Virus record (IMG/VR): IMGVR_UViG_3300028654_000234 | Span: 1 to 25,628 of that record | DNA: 25,628 nucleotides | Strand: one strand, 5' to 3' | Source: a virus | Shown: one piece after another, positions 3,133-19,562 of the stretch | How the letters are laid out: each line of letters opens with the position of its first letter | Numbering within the stretch: position 1 is the stretch's first letter | Notes under the pieces: generated by a model | What the model saw: only the letters and a program-made list of their open reading frames with translations | What the model was told of the DNA's origin: nothing | Database searches by the model: none | Made by a program: the position numbers and the translations under genes

Positions 3133-3513
3133 ATGACAACTCATAATATGACCTCCATTATAAACTGTAATACTTGTGGTGGATATCAATCTGGTGCAAT
3201 AAATATGAGTTGTACTGTGCCTATAAAATTATGTTCTTGTTCTAATTATTATTCTAATTGTAGACAGGGCTGGATATGTTCAAGGTGCAATAAGAGCCTA
3301 TCTCCTGATACAAAAGAATGCGATTGCTCACAAGAGCAAGGGTGTTATCAGTTCATACCGTATGTTCCATGGTATCCGTATACGCCGGTAAATCCTTGGC
3401 AACCATTCACACCTATCAACCCATCATACCCGTTTATACCCGTTTACACCTATAATCCGTTGCAACACTGGGATATGACAATAACTTGTTCTACATATAC
3501 CATAAATTCATAG
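3133..3513 (+). CDS. small Cys-rich protein with Pro/aromatic tail
   Basis: This 126-residue protein begins 2 bases after the previous stop, with AAAGG upstream. By my count 11 of its 12 cysteines lie in residues 12-71, arranged as CNTC, LCSC, ICSRC, ECDC and single Cys, which suggests one or two zinc ribbons/knuckles. Residues 73-112 switch to a proline- and aromatic-rich stretch with repeated units such as PWYPYTPVNPWQPFTP. No family recognised. The two-part design (metal-binding head, rigid Pro/Tyr/Trp tail) suggests a binding or linker role, but this is inference. No stretch is hydrophobic enough for a clear membrane helix. Confidence 0.78.
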   Translation: MTTHNMTSIINCNTCGGYQSGAINMSCTVPIKLCSCSNYYSNCRQGWICSRCNKSLSPDTKECDCSQEQGCYQFIPYVPWYPYTPVNPWQPFTPINPSYPFIPVYTYNPLQHWDMTITCSTYTINS

Positions 3514-3721: not shown

Positions 3722-6700
3722 ATGTTTACTAAAATCGGAGAGTTGTCATCATTAGATGGTTCTAGCATTCAATCAGAAGAATCAGTGTTTGCAGATCCGT
3801 CAGTTGATGAAAGATTTAAAAAGTTTGCTACCGAGCTTCGAAGAGTTGCTCCGAAGGCAAATGATTTTCTTTATTTTTCAGCAGTTATGCTACATAGCGC
3901 TGAAGCTGCATTAGTCAACGCAGATGGAACAGCAAAACTTAATTCTCGTGGTGAACAAGTAAAAGCTCACTGGGAGAAAAAAGGTGATAGTTGGAAATGG
4001 GTATGTTCAGACGCGCACGTACGCCCACTGAAAAACTCAAATGGTGATATCTTTCCAGAAGAAGAATTGCTTAAAGCTTATAAATTATGGATTGGTAAAC
4101 CATTATGTGTTGATCATAAATCAAGTCAAGTAGATGCAATTCGTGGAGTAATTTTAGATACATATTATGATCGTACATTTAAACGAGTGATCGGGTTATG
4201 TGCATTAGATAAAATATCATATCCTGAATTAGCTCGCGGTGTATCAACTGGATATAAAACAAGTGTATCAATGGGTACCGCAGTAGGTAAAGCTATATGT
4301 ACTGATTGTGGAACCGTTGCTCGTACTGAACACGATTTTTGTTCACATATGCGCTCGAAGTCTTGTTATGGTGAAATTAACGTTGATTTACAACCGATTG
4401 AGCTTTCCATTGTAGTTAATGGAGCAGATCCGCAAGCAAAGATACGTACTATTCTTGCTCATGCACAAGAAATTAATAATGCTCTTGACGAAAGCGGAAA
4501 AAAAATAAATCAAATGATCAATGAAGAAATTGATCCTGCTAATAAAATTAACCAAATGATTGGTGAAGAAGTTAGCAAACCAGCGTTAAAAGCAAAATTA
4601 GACAAACTTATGGCAGAACATCACAAATTAAAGCTAGAAATTGCCGAACTTGAGAAGATGTATGCTCAAGCGCCAGATACAAATACAGCAACAGATCATC
4701 AATCATGCGGAACGGAATCTAGCCCAAGCGATGAAACAAATCAAGAATCTTTTGGATTAAATTTACCAGAACGATTCGCATCTAATAATAATACATTATT
4801 AGATCAGGTAAAGAATTTAATGTCTTCGGTAGAAGGAAGACTTAACAATATGGAAACTGCACTACATACATTAACTAACAAAGAGGATACTATGTCAAAG
4901 GATGCAATGAATAAAAAAGAAGCTTATTACCAAGGTGCCGGTGGCGTTAACGAACCAACCCCAGGTCAAAAGAAATATCCTGTTGATCCAGCGAATGAGA
5001 AACTTCGTATGGAAGATAAGCATATGCAAGGCGAATCTCCATTCCCAGAAGTTGGCGCCATTGATGGACTTCATCCTTCCCCAGAGTCAGCTGATCAAAA
5101 AGATGAGCTCGAACGCAAAAAAATGTTAGCTCGTGCAGAACGACGCAACGCTGCCCTACAAAAGGCTAAGGAGAATGTTATGAAAACAAAAGAGGCTTAT
5201 TGGAATGGTGGCGGTGGCGTTAACGAACCAACACCAGGTAAACAAAAATATCCCGTTGATAACCTTGAATACGAACTTCGTGAAAAAGAAGATAAGCAAA
5301 TGGTTGGACAAAAACCATTCCCAGGAGTTGGCGATGTAGAAGGTCTACATCCATCACCTCTATCAGCTGATCAAAAAGACGAACTTGCTCGTAAAAAGCT
5401 TCTACAACGTGCATCGCTAAAGGCTCGTTTCGTTCGCACTGCTAAAACAGATGGAACAAATGATCTTGGTAATAGTGCATGGCAGGTGTTCGCAAAGAAC
5501 GAAGACGGTGAAAAACTAGTTTTCACAGCATCAGTTAATGAAATAACTGGGGGTCGCAGTGATGTTCTTTTTGATATGGTTGCAACAAAAGAATTCGGCA
5601 CAAAAATGCTAGAAAAAATCAGAACAGTTGGTTTTGAACAAGCAAATGCAATTTACAAAAAAGGTCAAGCAGTAGCAGCACCAGGTGGTGCTCCAGGTGC
5701 AGCAGATGCCGGTGGTGCAGGTGCAGCTCCAGCAATGCCAGATATGGGTGCTCCAGCTGCTCCAGCAGATGCGGCTCCAGCAGGTGATGATGCTAAACCA
5801 GAAGATCAAGGTGGTAAAGGTGATCCAAAAGATACAGCTATGAAATTAGCTGAAAAAGTTCGCGATTACGCTTCTGATTTACTTGAAGCAGTTCGTTCAC
5901 TAACAGGTGAGCAATCACAAATGGGTGATATGGAACAAGGTTTAGAGGCTATGCCAAAAGCAGCAAGTCAAGTTCTTGCTCCAATGTACAAATCACGTCG
6001 TGAATTAAATTCTGGTCTTCTTTCAGGTGCAAAGAAATCTCTTGCAGAACTAAAAGATCATCACGATGAACTAAAACTAATCGCAAGCATTGTTGAAAAT
6101 CTATCAGAAGCAAATAAAGATTACGCTAATACAGTTGTAGAAGATGCTTTTGCAGATGCAAAGAAAGCATGCAATGATGCAGAAGTACTTCTAAAATCAT
6201 TCTCTTCATACGTAAAAGGTGTCGCTGGTCTTAATAAACGAGCTGAAGAAGCAAAACAAGCATCAATGTTCTCTTTTGCAGAAGACGAGGATATGAATGA
6301 TGCTCGTAAAAAGGCAAAGAAAGACAAAGAAGAAAAAGCCTCTAAGGAAAAAGCTTCTAAAGAAAAAGCCGAAAAAGAAGACAAGGCTGAAAAAGAAGAA
6401 GAGGAAGAAGACGAAGATAAGTCTGATGCAGATGATACCAATGCATTCATGGGTGATACGTTTGAACAAGCTGATAAACTTGATAAAACACAACCAGGTG
6501 ATGAGTCTTGGGAAATTCCAGGTCGTGGTGATAAAAATGACCACATGGATCATCCAGAGCATGATGACGGCGAACTTGGTTTAGAAGATCTAGATCTTCC
6601 AACAGATGGTGATGATGGTGAAGAGCATGAAGATGCAGATAAGCCAGTCTTCGATATGGACGCAGACGATCAAAATGATACAATGGTTGACCTTCCAGCT

Positions 6701-7504
6701 GGAGCGCCAGTTCCAAATGGAGCAAAAGCAGTGGAGACAAAGATGGCATTCGATTTAACAACAAAAGAAGGTCGTACAGCTTACCGAGCAAAATTAGCTG
6801 CTGATGCAACTGGTAAAGAAGATGATGGTGAGATTCAATCCGTCGAATCTATGAAGCATAGTGATATGCTAGATGAAGCCAACAAACTAACCGATGGTCA
6901 GACACAACTTGATGTCAAACCTTCAGATAGTCTTGGTCTAGTTGAAACAAAGCCAGAACAACAAAAAGCAGATCTAGAAGTAGCACGCGCAGAACCAAAA
7001 GTTCGCAAAGAAGCTGAACGTCTAAATCAACTAATCTCTGAAGGCAAAGTTAAAGTTGCAGAACTTGATTCACTAATTGCACAAGGTCTAGATTCAGAGG
7101 TTGTTAAATACTGGAAACAATACTGGGGTCAAGCTGGCAAAGAAGGTTCAGAGTTTGCTAAGCTTCTAACAACCGAAACAATGAAAGCAAAAGCACAAGA
7201 AGAAATTGCTGCTCACAAAGTCAAGCTAGGTCGTGCATATGAACTAGCAAACGAAATGGTTCGTCGTGGTCTATGTGAAGATGAACGAACCGCTATCGCA
7301 GGTCAAGTTGATCAAATCATGACATGGAACGATGAGGGTTTTGAAAGCATGAAACGAGTTATTGCAAAACATGCACCAAAATCATTGAAAAAACAAGCCA
7401 TGCCAGTAGTTGGTCTCAAATCAGAAGAAATGTTCTCTGAACAATCAACAGAGTCAGGTCTTCAAGATGAACTAGAAAACGCATTCTCAGGCAGAAAATA
7501 CTAA
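3722..7504 (+). CDS. prohead protease fused to scaffold (head maturation polyprotein)
   Basis: A 1,260-residue protein. Residues ~45-250 look like a phage prohead serine protease: His132 in CVDHKSS and Ser183 in TSVSMG are the likely catalytic pair, as in Caudovirus prohead (U35/S78-type) proteases. A CTDC...C-S-H cluster (Cys193, Cys196, Cys207, His209) just after Ser183 is probably a zinc site. Residues ~255-390 are linker and coiled coil. Residues 399-570 contain two tandem 91-residue repeats (KEAY...VNEPTPG...GLHPSP). Then come a compact domain (~565-645, with VATKEFG and IRTVGFEQA), an Ala/Pro/Gly linker, a long helical region, a Lys/Glu stretch near residues 860-905, an acidic stretch and a conserved-looking C-terminal helical domain (MTWNDEGFESMKR). 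Protease plus long charged coiled coil fits a self-cleaving scaffold. Codon use becomes richer in optimal-looking codons after about base 4,900. Confidence 0.85.
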   Translation: MFTKIGELSSLDGSSIQSEESVFADPSVDERFKKFATELRRVAPKANDFLYFSAVMLHSAEAALVNADGTAKLNSRGEQVKAHWEKKGDSWKWVCSDAHVRPLKNSNGDIFPEEELLKAYKLWIGKPLCVDHKSSQVDAIRGVILDTYYDRTFKRVIGLCALDKISYPELARGVSTGYKTSVSMGTAVGKAICTDCGTVARTEHDFCSHMRSKSCYGEINVDLQPIELSIVVNGADPQAKIRTILAHAQEINNALDESGKKINQMINEEIDPANKINQMIGEEVSKPALKAKLDKLMAEHHKLKLEIAELEKMYAQAPDTNTATDHQSCGTESSPSDETNQESFGLNLPERFASNNNTLLDQVKNLMSSVEGRLNNMETALHTLTNKEDTMSKDAMNKKEAYYQGAGGVNEPTPGQKKYPVDPANEKLRMEDKHMQGESPFPEVGAIDGLHPSPESADQKDELERKKMLARAERRNAALQKAKENVMKTKEAYWNGGGGVNEPTPGKQKYPVDNLEYELREKEDKQMVGQKPFPGVGDVEGLHPSPLSADQKDELARKKLLQRASLKARFVRTAKTDGTNDLGNSAWQVFAKNEDGEKLVFTASVNEITGGRSDVLFDMVATKEFGTKMLEKIRTVGFEQANAIYKKGQAVAAPGGAPGAADAGGAGAAPAMPDMGAPAAPADAAPAGDDAKPEDQGGKGDPKDTAMKLAEKVRDYASDLLEAVRSLTGEQSQMGDMEQGLEAMPKAASQVLAPMYKSRRELNSGLLSGAKKSLAELKDHHDELKLIASIVENLSEANKDYANTVVEDAFADAKKACNDAEVLLKSFSSYVKGVAGLNKRAEEAKQASMFSFAEDEDMNDARKKAKKDKEEKASKEKASKEKAEKEDKAEKEEEEEDEDKSDADDTNAFMGDTFEQADKLDKTQPGDESWEIPGRGDKNDHMDHPEHDDGELGLEDLDLPTDGDDGEEHEDADKPVFDMDADDQNDTMVDLPAGAPVPNGAKAVETKMAFDLTTKEGRTAYRAKLAADATGKEDDGEIQSVESMKHSDMLDEANKLTDGQTQLDVKPSDSLGLVETKPEQQKADLEVARAEPKVRKEAERLNQLISEGKVKVAELDSLIAQGLDSEVVKYWKQYWGQAGKEGSEFAKLLTTETMKAKAQEEIAAHKVKLGRAYELANEMVRRGLCEDERTAIAGQVDQIMTWNDEGFESMKRVIAKHAPKSLKKQAMPVVGLKSEEMFSEQSTESGLQDELENAFSGRKY
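4892..7504 (+). CDS. putative nested scaffold protein from an internal start
   Basis: An in-frame ATG (residue 391 of the protease/scaffold) is preceded by AGAGGA at 4882-4887, an excellent Shine-Dalgarno at about 4-5 bases spacing. Initiation here would give an 870-residue product lacking the protease domain, analogous to lambda C/Nu3, where scaffold is made from a nested start inside the protease gene. The ATG falls exactly at the end of the coiled-coil linker and the beginning of the repeat region, a sensible domain boundary. A second in-frame ATG at 5180 has a perfect AAGGAG at 5168-5173. The existence of the nested product is inference. Confidence 0.42.
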   Translation: MSKDAMNKKEAYYQGAGGVNEPTPGQKKYPVDPANEKLRMEDKHMQGESPFPEVGAIDGLHPSPESADQKDELERKKMLARAERRNAALQKAKENVMKTKEAYWNGGGGVNEPTPGKQKYPVDNLEYELREKEDKQMVGQKPFPGVGDVEGLHPSPLSADQKDELARKKLLQRASLKARFVRTAKTDGTNDLGNSAWQVFAKNEDGEKLVFTASVNEITGGRSDVLFDMVATKEFGTKMLEKIRTVGFEQANAIYKKGQAVAAPGGAPGAADAGGAGAAPAMPDMGAPAAPADAAPAGDDAKPEDQGGKGDPKDTAMKLAEKVRDYASDLLEAVRSLTGEQSQMGDMEQGLEAMPKAASQVLAPMYKSRRELNSGLLSGAKKSLAELKDHHDELKLIASIVENLSEANKDYANTVVEDAFADAKKACNDAEVLLKSFSSYVKGVAGLNKRAEEAKQASMFSFAEDEDMNDARKKAKKDKEEKASKEKASKEKAEKEDKAEKEEEEEDEDKSDADDTNAFMGDTFEQADKLDKTQPGDESWEIPGRGDKNDHMDHPEHDDGELGLEDLDLPTDGDDGEEHEDADKPVFDMDADDQNDTMVDLPAGAPVPNGAKAVETKMAFDLTTKEGRTAYRAKLAADATGKEDDGEIQSVESMKHSDMLDEANKLTDGQTQLDVKPSDSLGLVETKPEQQKADLEVARAEPKVRKEAERLNQLISEGKVKVAELDSLIAQGLDSEVVKYWKQYWGQAGKEGSEFAKLLTTETMKAKAQEEIAAHKVKLGRAYELANEMVRRGLCEDERTAIAGQVDQIMTWNDEGFESMKRVIAKHAPKSLKKQAMPVVGLKSEEMFSEQSTESGLQDELENAFSGRKY
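4916..5430 (+). repeat. two tandem 91-codon repeats in the scaffold region
   Basis: Unit 1 spans about 4916-5188 and unit 2 5189-5430. They share KEAY, GGVNEPTPG, KYPVD, PFP.VG, GLHPSP and SADQKDEL.RKK in the same order with an offset of 273 bases. The DNA has diverged at many third positions, so the duplication is old and kept by protein-level selection. Each unit is preceded by a strong ribosome-binding sequence and an in-frame ATG, which suggests that the unit may once have been a separate small gene. Confidence 0.85.
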
Positions 7505-15440: not shown

Positions 15441-15459
15441 TTTAGATTTATAGTAATAA

Positions 15460-15547: not shown

Positions 15548-16255
15548 ATGGCTCTTATATTACACAATCCTGGGGCAAACCCCTTAGGGCAATTTGACGG
15601 TTATTTTGGCGAAACACTAAACTTCAAGGGCGGCGAAGTCTGCACTTGGGCAGGCATGGCATTCCCAGCTGCTGGCGCAGTTGACGTTGATGCTGACGGT
15701 TATGTCATTACATCAATGGGTAAAGCAGTTCCAGGCGTTTCACGCGCTCTTCTAACTGCAACCAGCAAACCACTCTTCCTATCGGATGATGGTATTACTG
15801 GTTACGGCACACTATTCGGCGCAGTAGTTGGTGGTCTACTTGGTCAACAAGTAAATGGTCCATATTCTTACACTGGCGCAGTTCTCGGTCCACACACCGC
15901 AACTGCTTCAGGCAAAGTAACAGTATGGGACAAACCAGGTCTCTACGGAACAACTCTTGATGCAGTTGATACAGCTGCAACCGGTCTAGTTCCAACTAAC
16001 TTCACCCTATCAGTTGGTGCAGCTCTAACATACACAGCAACTGGTCTTCTAACTCCAGTTGGCAGTGCAAATGCTCTAGCTGGTGCATCAGTTGTCGCAC
16101 GTCTAGCATCATTCGAAAATAACGGTTCACTCGTAACTACACCAAGCTCACTAGTGTCAGCTCTAAACAGCCCATCTGGTAGCGTATCCAGCCTACAACA
16201 ACTTCGTTTTACACAAGCTGTTTACTGGTACAACGGAGCTGGTGGTAACGCATAA
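15548..16255 (+). CDS. abundant virion structural protein (head decoration-type)
   Basis: A 235-residue protein with AAGGA at 15537-15541. It is rich in Gly, Ala, Thr, Ser, Val and Leu, and beta in character, beginning MALILHNPGANPLGQFDGY. Codon choice is visibly different from neighbours: more C-ending and GGT/CTA/GTT/GCA codons, as in the MCP, suggesting strong expression. It has its own upstream candidate promoter and a strong terminator 36 bases after the stop, so it forms a single-gene unit. Proximity to the MCP and composition fit a capsid decoration or another major virion protein. A tail-tube identity cannot be excluded from sequence alone. Confidence 0.7.
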   Translation: MALILHNPGANPLGQFDGYFGETLNFKGGEVCTWAGMAFPAAGAVDVDADGYVITSMGKAVPGVSRALLTATSKPLFLSDDGITGYGTLFGAVVGGLLGQQVNGPYSYTGAVLGPHTATASGKVTVWDKPGLYGTTLDAVDTAATGLVPTNFTLSVGAALTYTATGLLTPVGSANALAGASVVARLASFENNGSLVTTPSSLVSALNSPSGSVSSLQQLRFTQAVYWYNGAGGNA

Positions 16256-16290
16256 TAGTAACTAACTAGAAATAGTTATTAGATAGTTTC

Positions 16291-16326
16291 AAAAAGCCTG
16301 GCGGAAATGCTGGGCTTTTTGTTTTT
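16291..16326 (+). terminator. strong Rho-independent terminator
   Basis: Left arm AAAAAGCCTGGC (16291-16302) pairs with GCTGGGCTTTTT (16309-16320) including two G-T wobbles, around a 6-base loop, then GTTTTT. It ends the 15548-16255 unit. Confidence 0.92.
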
Positions 16327-16336
16327 AATAATAAAT

Positions 16337-16344
16337 TATAAATA
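16337..16344 (+). promoter_or_regulatory. TATAAATA, T4-late-like promoter candidate
   Basis: An exact TATAAATA octamer, the consensus -10 element of T4-type late promoters, located between a terminator and the next single-gene unit (16421-17161). The background is AT-rich, so chance occurrence is possible. ATAAATA also occurs in the gaps at 3526, 9674, 22586 and 25366. Confidence 0.35.
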
Positions 16345-16420
16345 ATAATCAACAATGCACAATGTTGTATTCGGTTAGAAGATGAATGTAAGTAAACAAT
16401 CTAACTAAGGATATAATACA

Positions 16421-17161
16421 ATGACAAATTATAGAAATCCAAATGTTGGTGGTATTCCCGTAATACTACCACAATCATACTGGGATGAACAACAAAGACT
16501 CATAGATCATGCAAACGGATATGATTATACTACTAACCCTACTAACAACAATCCTGTTAATAATACTGTAAATGGGCGCACATTTAATCGTACATTTGAT
16601 GGTCGCAGGAATAATTTTGGTTTTAGAGACGGCTATCATGATGGCTACGGTTTTAGAGACGGCTATCAAGACGGTTACGGTTTTAACAATGGCTATGGGG
16701 ACGGCTATGGTAACAGAAACTGGGACGGCAGCAATAATTGGAATGGAAACGTAGACGCTAATGGCAATTGGAATGGAAACGTAGATGCTAATGGTAATTG
16801 GAATGGTAATGTAGACGGTAGTGGTAGACCACACGGTCAATTTGCTGGTCGTTCACCAACAGACGGTTCTACTGGAATGGAATGGTACTTGCCTCAAAAT
16901 CAAGGAGTTATTCCACAACAACAACGATTACATATGAATACATGGAATCAATTTGGTCGTTATAATACTAGGTTTGTAAATAGTTCAAGCAATCCATCAT
17001 ATAATAACAATCCTTACAATAATGTTCCATATAACAACGGTCCAACAAATAATAACCCATACAACAATGGTAGATTTAATAATGGTCCGTACAACAACGG
17101 TCCAAATAATAATCAATTCGGTAATCCTAATAACAGGTTTGCACGTCGTCGTATGTTCTAA
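16421..17161 (+). CDS. Asn/Gly/Tyr-rich low-complexity repeat protein
   Basis: A 246-residue protein with AAGGAT upstream. Residues 1-33 are ordinary (VGGIPVILPQSYWDEQQRL). After that it is almost entirely low complexity: by my count 58 Asn and about 35 Gly. Three 10-residue units of the type GFRDGYHDGY (16619-16708) are followed by three 10-residue units NWNGNVDANG (16736-16825). A second short ordinary patch follows (TGMEWYLPQNQGVIP). The last ~60 residues repeat PYNNGP and end in the basic ARRRMF. It has no cysteine, signal peptide or membrane helix. It occupies its own unit, with a strong terminator before and another after, directly between an abundant structural gene and the MCP. The function is not recognised; a disordered, aromatic-spaced Asn-rich protein could coat the capsid surface or form a condensate. 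Both are speculation. Confidence 0.8.
   Translation: MTNYRNPNVGGIPVILPQSYWDEQQRLIDHANGYDYTTNPTNNNPVNNTVNGRTFNRTFDGRRNNFGFRDGYHDGYGFRDGYQDGYGFNNGYGDGYGNRNWDGSNNWNGNVDANGNWNGNVDANGNWNGNVDGSGRPHGQFAGRSPTDGSTGMEWYLPQNQGVIPQQQRLHMNTWNQFGRYNTRFVNSSSNPSYNNNPYNNVPYNNGPTNNNPYNNGRFNNGPYNNGPNNNQFGNPNNRFARRRMF
16619..16825 (+). repeat. two consecutive arrays of 3 x 30-bp coding repeats
   Basis: Array A: units at 16619-16648, 16649-16678 and 16679-16708 (GFRDGYHDGY type), with a partial fourth. Array B: units at 16736-16765, 16766-16795 and 16796-16825 (NWNGNVDANG type), nearly identical in DNA for the first two. Both have 10-codon periods but unrelated unit sequences, pointing to repeated local amplification within one gene. 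Confidence 0.88.
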
Positions 17162-17182
17162 TAAGTAGATTATATACTATAT

Positions 17183-17217
17183 AATGCTGAGTAGCTTAAG
17201 TGCTATTCGGCATTTTT
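17183..17217 (+). terminator. Rho-independent terminator
   Basis: A 13-bp stem (17183-17195 with 17202-17214, two G-T pairs), 6-base loop, and TTTTT at 17213-17217. It closes the Asn/Gly-rich gene unit just ahead of the MCP promoter region. Confidence 0.85.
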
Positions 17218-17242
17218 AGTTTAAATAATTTATTTTTATAAA

Positions 17243-17258
17243 CATAGTAATATTGAAA
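17243..17258 (+). promoter_or_regulatory. candidate late promoter of the MCP gene
   Basis: CATAGT (17243-17248) then ATTGAAA (17252-17258), preceded by TTTATTTTTATA (17229-17240) and followed by AAGATCA (17262-17268). It resembles the sites at 8957 and 15460 and lies between a terminator and the MCP. Confidence 0.42.
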
Positions 17259-17270
17259 CATAAGATCAAA

Positions 17271-17299
17271 GGAATATTTTATTCCAGCTGGGAAACTGG
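17271..17299 (+). promoter_or_regulatory. hairpins in the MCP mRNA leader
   Basis: GGAATA-TTT-TATTCC (17271-17285) is a perfect 6-bp stem with a 3-base loop near the probable 5' end of the MCP mRNA. CCAG (17284-17287) can also pair with CTGG (17296-17299). A terminal hairpin in a highly expressed leader often stabilises mRNA. No poly-T follows, so it is not a terminator. Confidence 0.4.
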
Positions 17300-17330
17300 C
17301 AACAAACTCAACAATAATCGGAGAAAATAC

Positions 17331-18347
17331 ATGTCTAATTCAATGTTCGATTCAAAAGGCGAAATTAACGCCTCTAACGTAAAAGAAGCTTTTGCACTTA
17401 TTGCAAAATTCGCACAGACAATGGAGTCAGGTGCACCAACAAATACTGGTCTAACATCACCATCAGTATCAGATAACAAACGTGATGAACTTATTTCTCG
17501 CGCGATTTTAACTAATGAAGGTAAACTAGCTCTTGCACAAGCAATGGCAAATCCAATTCGTAGGAATTTAGACTATCACGGAATTGCGCGACGCGCATTA
17601 GTCGTTGATCCTTTGCCACAAGGTGCACTACCAACATACGATCGAGATATCGATGTTGCAGCAGTCGTAATCTCATCCAACGGTACCGGTCCAGAATCAC
17701 GCGTATTCGGTGACCGCGTAACAGTTCCAGAATTCGAAGTCTATTCGAATCCAACTGTTCGTATCGCAGAAGTTAAACGACGCCGCTTCAACGTAATCGA
17801 CCGTGCTGTTCAAAAGGCACGTCAAGAAATCATGGCACAAGAAGACACGAACGTTTTCGCAGCCATCGATTCAGCAGCATCAGTTGAAAACACTGTAATG
17901 GATATCAGCGATGCTGGTCTTCTAAAGCGTGACCTTCGTGAAATCAAAGTTCAAATTGATCGTTGGGACTTAGTAACAACCAAGTTCTTCATGAACATCA
18001 ATGAGTTCAATGATATCCTCGGTTGGGGCTCTGGTGGTGGACAAGGCGTTGGCGGTGGTGAAGTTGACCCCGTTACACAACGTGAAATTCTACAAACAGG
18101 TCTATACGCACACATCTGGGGTGCAGACATTCTCGTGTCGAAGATTGTTCCTGCTGGTACAGTCTACGGCTGCAGCGACCCTGAGTTCGTGGGCGTAATG
18201 CCAATCAGGCAGGATATCGAAGTTCTTCCAGCCGATGAACCAAAACAACTAAAGTTGGGCTGGGTTGTCAATGAAATAATAGGGATCGGCATTGTGAATC
18301 CACGTGCCGTTGCAAAAGGCAATAAATCAGTAATAATCGGAGCCTAG
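17331..18347 (+). CDS. major capsid protein (HK97-like fold)
   Basis: A 338-residue protein starting at ATG 17331, 7 bases after GGAG (17320-17323). The frame stays open upstream to a TTG at 17253, but that lies inside the promoter motif and lacks a ribosome site. Characteristic MCP features are the N-terminal helical arm, DYHGIARRALVVDPLPQGALP, the E-loop/beta region (FGDRVTVPEFEVYSNPTVRI), the spine-helix segment (AVQKARQEIMAQEDTNVFAA) and the C-terminal GWVVNEIIGIGIVNPRAVA. Codons are strongly biased to optimal-looking choices, as expected of the most abundant protein. It is a single-gene unit with its own promoter candidate, leader hairpins and terminator. The N-terminal arm may be trimmed by the 3722-7504 protease. 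Confidence 0.9.
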   Translation: MSNSMFDSKGEINASNVKEAFALIAKFAQTMESGAPTNTGLTSPSVSDNKRDELISRAILTNEGKLALAQAMANPIRRNLDYHGIARRALVVDPLPQGALPTYDRDIDVAAVVISSNGTGPESRVFGDRVTVPEFEVYSNPTVRIAEVKRRRFNVIDRAVQKARQEIMAQEDTNVFAAIDSAASVENTVMDISDAGLLKRDLREIKVQIDRWDLVTTKFFMNINEFNDILGWGSGGGQGVGGGEVDPVTQREILQTGLYAHIWGADILVSKIVPAGTVYGCSDPEFVGVMPIRQDIEVLPADEPKQLKLGWVVNEIIGIGIVNPRAVAKGNKSVIIGA

Positions 18348-18512: not shown

Positions 18513-19562
18513 ATGGCAAAAAATCAGGGCAAACTGACAGGAAAAGAAGATCAAATAATCAAAGATTATATCTCAGGTGATGGATCAGAAATTCTTGCAC
18601 AAAGATACGGAGTAAGTGGAAGCTCGATTCTCAAATTTTTGAAGAAGCATAATGTTCCAATTCGTCCACGTAAAATCACACCAAAAGATATGAAAGAGCG
18701 TTGTATTGAAAGATATAAATCAGGTCTCTCATTAGAAGCCTCGGGAGAGCCAGACGGATTAAGTGCAGCTGCCGTTCTCATGTACATGGAAGAGTATAAT
18801 GTTCCAACACGAAGTGCCGAAGAAGCACATAGAAAATATCCTATCAATGAAGATTTTTTTGACAAAATAGATACCGAGGAGAAGGCTTATTTTCTTGGCT
18901 TCCTATATGCTGATGGATGTAATCAGATGGCTAATTATTGGGCAACTGTAATATCATTAGATGTTATTGATGTTGATATTTTATACCGTTTTTCGAAGAT
19001 GATATACAAAGATGAAAATACCGCGAAAGAACAGATAAAATTTAGCAATAGGGAACACGAAGGTAAAAGAATAGAAGCTCGTCTATCAATCAATAGTAAA
19101 TATATATGCCAGCAAATGCAAAAATTAGGCTGCGTATCACGAAAGACATTCATATTAGAATATCCTAAATGGATGCCAGAACATCTACATCGTCATTTTA
19201 TTCGCGGATATTTTGATGGTGATGGAACTATCAACAATGAAACTAAAACCCTCTCTGGATGTAAGATTGTGTCAACTCTACAGTTTTTGGAAGGATTGAA
19301 AAAGGTTGTTGGAATAGATTCTAGTATTGGTAAACACGACCCAACTAATAATAAAAATACCTATCTTTTATATTATTCTGGTAATCGAAATCAATGGTTA
19401 TTCCTACACTGGATCTATTCAGGATCTACAATATATCTTCAACGCAAGTACGATGCCTACATGCGTTTCGCAGAAAAGATGCGCGTAATAGACGAAAAAA
19501 CATCTGCCGGAACACAAGGATATAAAAAATCTAATCTACTAAAAACATCATCACTAAAATAA
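18513..19562 (+). CDS. LAGLIDADG homing endonuclease with two N-terminal HTH units
   Basis: A 349-residue protein. I chose the ATG at 18513 (MAKNQGK), which has GGAG 6 bases upstream; the in-frame ATG at 18501 is only 2 bases from AAGGAG. Residues ~10-55 and ~60-105 are two helix-turn-helix units, both ending in a similar phrase (HNVPIRP, YNVPTRS). Two LAGLIDADG motifs follow: FLGFLYADG (127-135) and FIRGYFDGDG (229-238), each supplying an acidic catalytic residue, so it should act as a monomer cutting a long DNA site. The HTH units may add specificity. It is free-standing: the MCP upstream is intact and terminated. It has its own sigma70-type promoter. It probably spreads by cutting phages that lack it, with the target near this site (inference). 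Confidence 0.9.
   Translation: MAKNQGKLTGKEDQIIKDYISGDGSEILAQRYGVSGSSILKFLKKHNVPIRPRKITPKDMKERCIERYKSGLSLEASGEPDGLSAAAVLMYMEEYNVPTRSAEEAHRKYPINEDFFDKIDTEEKAYFLGFLYADGCNQMANYWATVISLDVIDVDILYRFSKMIYKDENTAKEQIKFSNREHEGKRIEARLSINSKYICQQMQKLGCVSRKTFILEYPKWMPEHLHRHFIRGYFDGDGTINNETKTLSGCKIVSTLQFLEGLKKVVGIDSSIGKHDPTNNKNTYLLYYSGNRNQWLFLHWIYSGSTIYLQRKYDAYMRFAEKMRVIDEKTSAGTQGYKKSNLLKTSSLK

Follow-up and report, generated by a model that had tools for sequence, protein, structure and literature searches.

This locus raises the question of whether an extremely asparagine-rich, low-complexity gene located directly beside the major capsid protein (MCP) gene of a large phage is part of the capsid module, or whether it arrived there by another route. 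The window, i.e., the whole stretch of 25,628 nucleotides of viral DNA that was analysed, derives from a phage-G-like jumbo phage, a relative of Bacillus phage G, and contigs related to it reach 480 kb. All features described below between positions 15548 and 19562 lie on the plus strand.

Genomic context of the asparagine-rich gene

The MCP gene (17331-18347) was identified by its matches to phrog_2522 (E 8.8e-78) and to the PDB entry 6wkk (E 7.7e-96), the cryo-EM entry of phage G gp27, with which the MCP shares 54% identity. On the far side of the MCP gene lies a LAGLIDADG homing endonuclease gene (18513-19562), which matches PF14528 (E 3.7e-9) and phrog_4645 (E 5.6e-59). Upstream of the Asn-rich gene, the gene at 15548-16255 matches phage G gp26 in predicted fold and in position. 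The AlphaFold model of its product, built from 35 relatives with a mean pLDDT of 70.5, gave gp26 as its top fold match in BFVD (E 4.5e-4, probability 1.00), and gp26, which is annotated as a capsid decoration protein, adjoins gp27 directly, the same placement as that of 15548-16255 before the MCP gene. It was the fold comparison that gave this match; a sequence-level link between the two proteins was not found by hhalign (probability 0.2). The gene is referred to here as the decoration gene. The initial annotation had placed the Asn-rich gene between a structural gene and the MCP gene, and both neighbours are confirmed.

Sequence and composition

The open reading frame at 16421-17161 was confirmed exactly as first annotated, with an ATG start, an SD-like AAGGA upstream and a length of 246 amino acids. 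It codes for an Asn/Gly/Tyr/Arg-rich, Lys-free orphan protein. The estimate that about a quarter of its residues are Asn also holds, with 58 of 246 (23.6%) as opposed to 6.1% in the other genes of the window (binomial P 5e-19). The protein further contains 35 Gly, 19 Arg (7.7%), 17 Tyr, 17 Pro, 14 Asp and 2 Glu, no Cys and no Lys, the last of which has a probability of about 2e-9 at the Lys frequency of the window; Tyr, Phe and Trp together make up 15%. With 28.5% Asn plus Gln, no Lys and two Glu, it fits a prion-like composition, which is Asn/Gln-rich, of low complexity and poor in charges. Among 1345 distinct ORFs of this phage and its relatives it has the highest Asn content, followed by one with 13.9%, and no close look-alike in composition was found among the 1345 ORFs of related phages. 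The GC content of the gene is 38%, compared with 48% and 45% in its two neighbours and a range of 27-48% for the genes of the window, and its codon usage is ordinary for the window.

Two stacked 10-residue repeats with three units each, followed by a PYNNGP region, had been noticed in the protein, and this arrangement was recovered by TRF and by the number of period-10 self-matches (73 versus 24.6 +/- 4.4, maximum 41, in 2000 shuffles). Repeat A (GFRDGYxDGY, 16619-16708) corresponds to a 30-bp DNA repeat at 16619-16711 and repeat B (NWNGNVDANG, 16736-16825) to a 30-bp DNA repeat at 16735-16826, and the PYNNGP region (17003-17113) is a loose 30/45-bp array with 71-75% matches. AlphaFold prediction from the single sequence, which is a weak test of disorder, gave a mean pLDDT of 42.9 and one weak helix at residues 18-31, and the charge-hydropathy plot places the protein on the disordered side (0.339 versus a boundary of 0.418). 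The description of the protein as low-complexity and aromatic-spaced is supported, and it is predicted to be disordered.

The search for homologues returned contigs of the same species only, whether with tblastn of the full-length protein against phages and plasmids, in which low-complexity filtering may hide most of the protein, with the N-terminal 36 amino acids alone against phages, or with pattern scans of IMG/VR and of GTDB genomes (two queries each). The protein had no match in the PDB (phmmer), Pfam or PHROGs, and these three sources, together with the absence of a confident AlphaFold fold, gave no homology or fold linking it to a decoration family. The suggestion that no described family resembles this protein thus stands for all collections searched. 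The protein is a new orphan, and the genomic event that brought it to this site, described below, is of a known kind.

The structural module also contains, at 1732-2499, a gene resembling dual-specificity/tyrosine phosphatases, with a tail rich in Tyr and Asp. The product of 3133-3513, in the same module, is rich in Cys, resembles a zinc ribbon and has a low-complexity tail of Pro, Tyr and Trp. In contrast to the Asn-rich protein, it has a conserved homologue in the sister phage (L117:1739-2089), and of the two it is the stronger candidate for a disordered core factor of the head or of its assembly. In the 1260-amino-acid product of 3722-7504, the match to a head maturation protease is confined to the N-terminal part, at residues 103-213; the long remainder is charged and of low complexity, which suggests a protease-scaffold fusion.

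An insert at the decoration-MCP junction

Homology between the window and L012 ends at 16328 and restarts at 17239. The inserted segment (16329-17238, with ends approximate to about 10-20 bp) comprises a leader, the Asn-rich gene and, 3' of it, the gene's own terminator. In L012 and L013, whose MCPs are 98% identical to that of the window, the gap between the decoration and MCP genes is gene-free and measures 185-187 bp, and the homology breakpoints lie directly after the decoration terminator and then before the MCP leader. A search of 27 further large records or loci, among them the 406-kb L012 and the complete phage G, found no copy of the gene, which is confined to contigs of one near-clonal phage species. 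The Asn-rich gene is therefore a separate inserted unit that brings its own terminator; it occurs in a single species, and the exact site is empty in the closest relatives. One gain in the lineage of the window is a simpler explanation than several exact losses in its sisters. The proposal that the gene is a member of the capsid module is not supported by this comparison, as it is missing at the exact site in phages with 97-98% identical MCPs and in all other relatives examined. Nor is a gene at this position conserved in general, since gp26 and gp27 are adjacent in phage G and the gap is gene-free in 65 of 84 relatives.

These 84 distinct contigs, which carry both genes, show the gap either empty (65 contigs, 85-233 bp) or occupied (19 contigs). 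Most of the occupants are HNH-type genes in minus-strand orientation, with GIY-YIG genes in L043 and L046; strain L011, a further occupied case, was merged with the species of the window in this tally. Insertions thus recur in the gap between the decoration and MCP genes, a hotspot used mainly by homing-endonuclease genes. In the window itself, an endonuclease gene is found only on the right side of the MCP gene (LAGLIDADG), and an HNH gene on the left flank occurs within the species only in L011, where the Asn-rich gene is followed by the gene of a 130-amino-acid orphan, a gene with a match to elongation factor Tu domain 3 and the HNH gene. The orphan and the protein with the EF-Tu match are further cargo at the hotspot (L011:3857-4666). 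A recombination reading across the whole of strain L011 was rejected, since its MCP DNA matches that of the window exactly over about 800 bp and departs from it only towards and within the LAGLIDADG gene. At the same spot, L014 carries a PIN-domain gene and an HNH gene 79% identical to that of L011. A small ORF precedes the PIN-domain gene on its strand (L014:3933-4415), and the two are possibly a toxin-antitoxin pair. In L242, the same slot holds a plus-strand gene for a Gly-rich protein (PF21722, with PHROG tail-fibre matches) beside an HNH gene, and the relatives of the PF21722 domain include tail-fibre proteins.

Translation and selection

The repeat units, defined at the DNA level by TRF, allow selection on the gene to be assessed from a single sequence. 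Between units in the frame of the ORF, repeat A shows a pS of 0.52 and a pN of 0.12 (pN/pS 0.24) and repeat B a pS of 0.44 and a pN of 0.04 (pN/pS 0.09). In adjacent units of both repeats, synonymous sites had changed in 11 of about 23 cases and nonsynonymous sites in only 8 of about 97 (Fisher P 4e-5), and 13 of 19 differences fall on third codon positions (P 0.002), an excess that was not seen in the two other forward frames. The looser PYNNGP array follows the same trend, with a less certain alignment of its units. Because the differences between repeat units are mostly synonymous and at third positions, the Asn-rich ORF is a real gene whose protein has been translated and has been under purifying selection after unit duplication. 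The divergence of the units (pS 0.44-0.52) is similar to the synonymous divergence of the MCP gene from sister phages (0.42-0.46), and the gene is therefore older than its near-clonal present distribution.

The strains of the species have an identical Asn-rich protein, with one SNP in the ORF (17134, third position, synonymous by inspection), and since there is only this one, a comparison of strains has no power to detect selection. No orthologues, truncated or frameshifted forms included, were found in related phages, and the gene is intact in all contigs of the species that span it.

Terminators and expression signals

The presence of terminators on both sides of the gene was confirmed. The upstream one (16290-16321) has a 14-bp stem and a T tail (-19.3 kcal/mol, z -5.1), and the downstream one lies at 17183-17214 (-21.1 kcal/mol, z -6.6); both are strong. 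The upstream terminator also occurs in L012, L013 and L014, relatives that lack the Asn-rich gene; it is therefore ancestral and belongs to the decoration gene and not to the Asn-rich unit. The downstream terminator, which is found in neither L012 nor L013, is part of the insert.

In the window, the motif GTAATA occurs in intergenic plus-strand DNA only at 15453, 17247, 21021 and 24087, and is absent from the intergenic minus strand. These elements are located 60-95 nt before the starts of the decoration gene, the MCP gene (17247-17252) and two further genes, with distances of 84-95 nt for the decoration and MCP genes. In relatives, GTAATA is concentrated upstream of both genes, at about -74 to -87 for the MCP gene (25 of 93, shuffle mean 5.8) and -82 to -95 for the decoration gene (24 of 78, compared with 11.1 in shuffles). 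We infer that GTAATA is a candidate promoter element of structural genes in phage-G-like phages. This assessment uses a plain count against shuffles in place of an EM motif matrix from MCP leaders, which was set aside because the GCTGG..CTGGCAA leader hairpin and mixed families prevailed in it.

The leader of the Asn-rich gene lacks GTAATA, and the search for a promoter of its own yielded weak sigma-70-like matches only, no more than in shuffles. A T4-like late promoter TATAAATA at 16337 was considered and is unsupported, being one among three intergenic plus-strand matches. The expectation that the protein is made late and in quantity is accordingly unsupported, though not disproved, because the GTAATA element is missing and the ancestral terminator before the gene would stop read-through.

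Two RNA features were observed in the same gap. The leader just 5' of the MCP ribosome-binding site (window 17271-17330) has the consensus GCTGG-N4-8-CTGGCAAAtAATTC, kept in nearly all of about 60 related loci, and forms a hairpin by pairing of GCUGG with CUGGC or CCGGC; it is possibly a translation or RNA-stability element, and a search of ten loci against Rfam gave no match. In L028, L035, L049, L058-L062, L066, L077 and L078, where the hotspot is empty, a G+C-rich and apparently multi-stem RNA (..CTCTGGCCGGGAGGCTGGGGGAGA..) is located where other relatives have the GTAATA promoter-like element.

Proposed origin and role

Taking these results together, we consider the Asn-rich gene to be probably an accessory, moron-like insert at a homing-endonuclease hotspot, coding for a disordered, sticky protein that may have an optional role at the virion surface or in adhesion. 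The gene would have entered one phage-G-like lineage by insertion into the decoration-MCP gap, presumably carried in by homing-driven recombination there, a route that is inferred from L011 and L014 because the insert in the window adjoins no HNH gene. The product would be disordered, with Tyr, Phe, Trp and Arg as sticky residues and Gly, Asn, Asp and Pro as spacers, and the short N-terminal helix at residues 18-31 might act as an anchor. Made in the infected cell, it may reach the virion surface or be freed at lysis, and its weak multivalent contacts would help particles to stick to cells, matrix or each other, while the protein would be dispensable for building the head. The adhesive or coat role, taken by itself, is a tentative assignment by analogy, which we hold with rather low confidence. 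Two points favour it: the plus-strand cargo of L242 is a member of a Gly-rich family of tail-fibre type, and a survey of phage prion-like domains located most of them in proteins for attachment or structure (Tetz and Tetz, 2017; PMC5694896).

A sticker-and-spacer composition is a feature of condensate proteins, and accessory genes carried beside homing genes often have a part in conflicts. The protein might thus act inside the cell as a condensate-forming or host-interfering factor, which phase-separates and gathers assembly intermediates or sequesters a component of the host or of a rival phage. This is a possible but doubtful reading: the aromatic residues (15%), Arg (7.7%), lack of Lys and low-complexity repeats agree with it, as does the PIN-domain gene at the same spot in L014, whereas a partner or nucleic-acid-binding domain and a homologue were not found in the searches described. 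The likeness to sticky, condensate-prone proteins is in any case a resemblance in composition. Between the two, an adhesive or optional virion-surface role is somewhat favoured, with an intracellular condensate or conflict factor nearly as likely. An unlikely further variant is that this Lys-free, Tyr/Arg/Asn-rich protein forms a condensate or sticky coat around the very large capsid, as an optional module swapped by homing endonucleases; the Gly-rich protein of L242 would then suggest a second, unrelated example at the same slot.

A passenger, i.e., a low-complexity gene that homing or recombination brought along and that has no present benefit, would also be expected at such a hotspot, and the one synonymous SNP among the strains sampled leaves present-day selection unmeasurable. 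However, the gene is intact in every spanning contig and has its own leader and terminator, and selection on the repeat units indicates that it was functional at least before its arrival, so that we regard this as improbable. A conserved structural part of the capsid module, such as a coat, scaffold or cement, is brought to mind by the position between the decoration and MCP genes on the same strand; the absence of the gene from phages with nearly identical MCPs and from every other relative examined, its separate terminators and the unshared GTAATA element make this very improbable. The accessory insert is thus the reading that we retain.

Comparison with known systems and significance

The locus indicates that large phages gain strongly biased new proteins via a homing-endonuclease hotspot beside the capsid gene, with cargo that differs between sisters: the Asn-rich protein, a PIN-domain gene or a Gly-rich tail-fibre-like protein. 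It also calls for caution, as a position next to the MCP gene need not mean a capsid function. Should the product coat virions or form condensates in cells, it would offer a compact system in which to test low-complexity proteins encoded by phages.

Like morons, the Asn-rich gene is a single gene between conserved genes, with its own terminator, restricted to one lineage and with an empty site in sisters; unlike in morons, an own promoter was not found, apart from the weak matches mentioned. In HEG islands, essential genes of phages are flanked by homing endonuclease genes, which take cargo along with them (Barth et al., 2023; PMC10448857). This is similar to the LAGLIDADG gene after the MCP gene and to the HNH or GIY-YIG genes with travelling cargo before it in many relatives, although the window has the right-hand endonuclease gene only. 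With capsid decoration or cement proteins, such as phage G gp26, the gene shares its place adjoining the MCP and decoration genes, and P30 is a precedent that a capsid protein can be largely disordered. However, the Asn-rich protein has no homology to them and is not conserved, and the gp26 counterpart is already present at 15548-16255. The survey by Tetz and Tetz (2017; PMC5694896) located prion-like phage domains chiefly in proteins for attachment, penetration and structure, and the Asn-rich low complexity of the protein is similar to theirs; those domains are part of larger, known proteins, whereas here nearly the whole protein is of low complexity, orphan and specific to one lineage.
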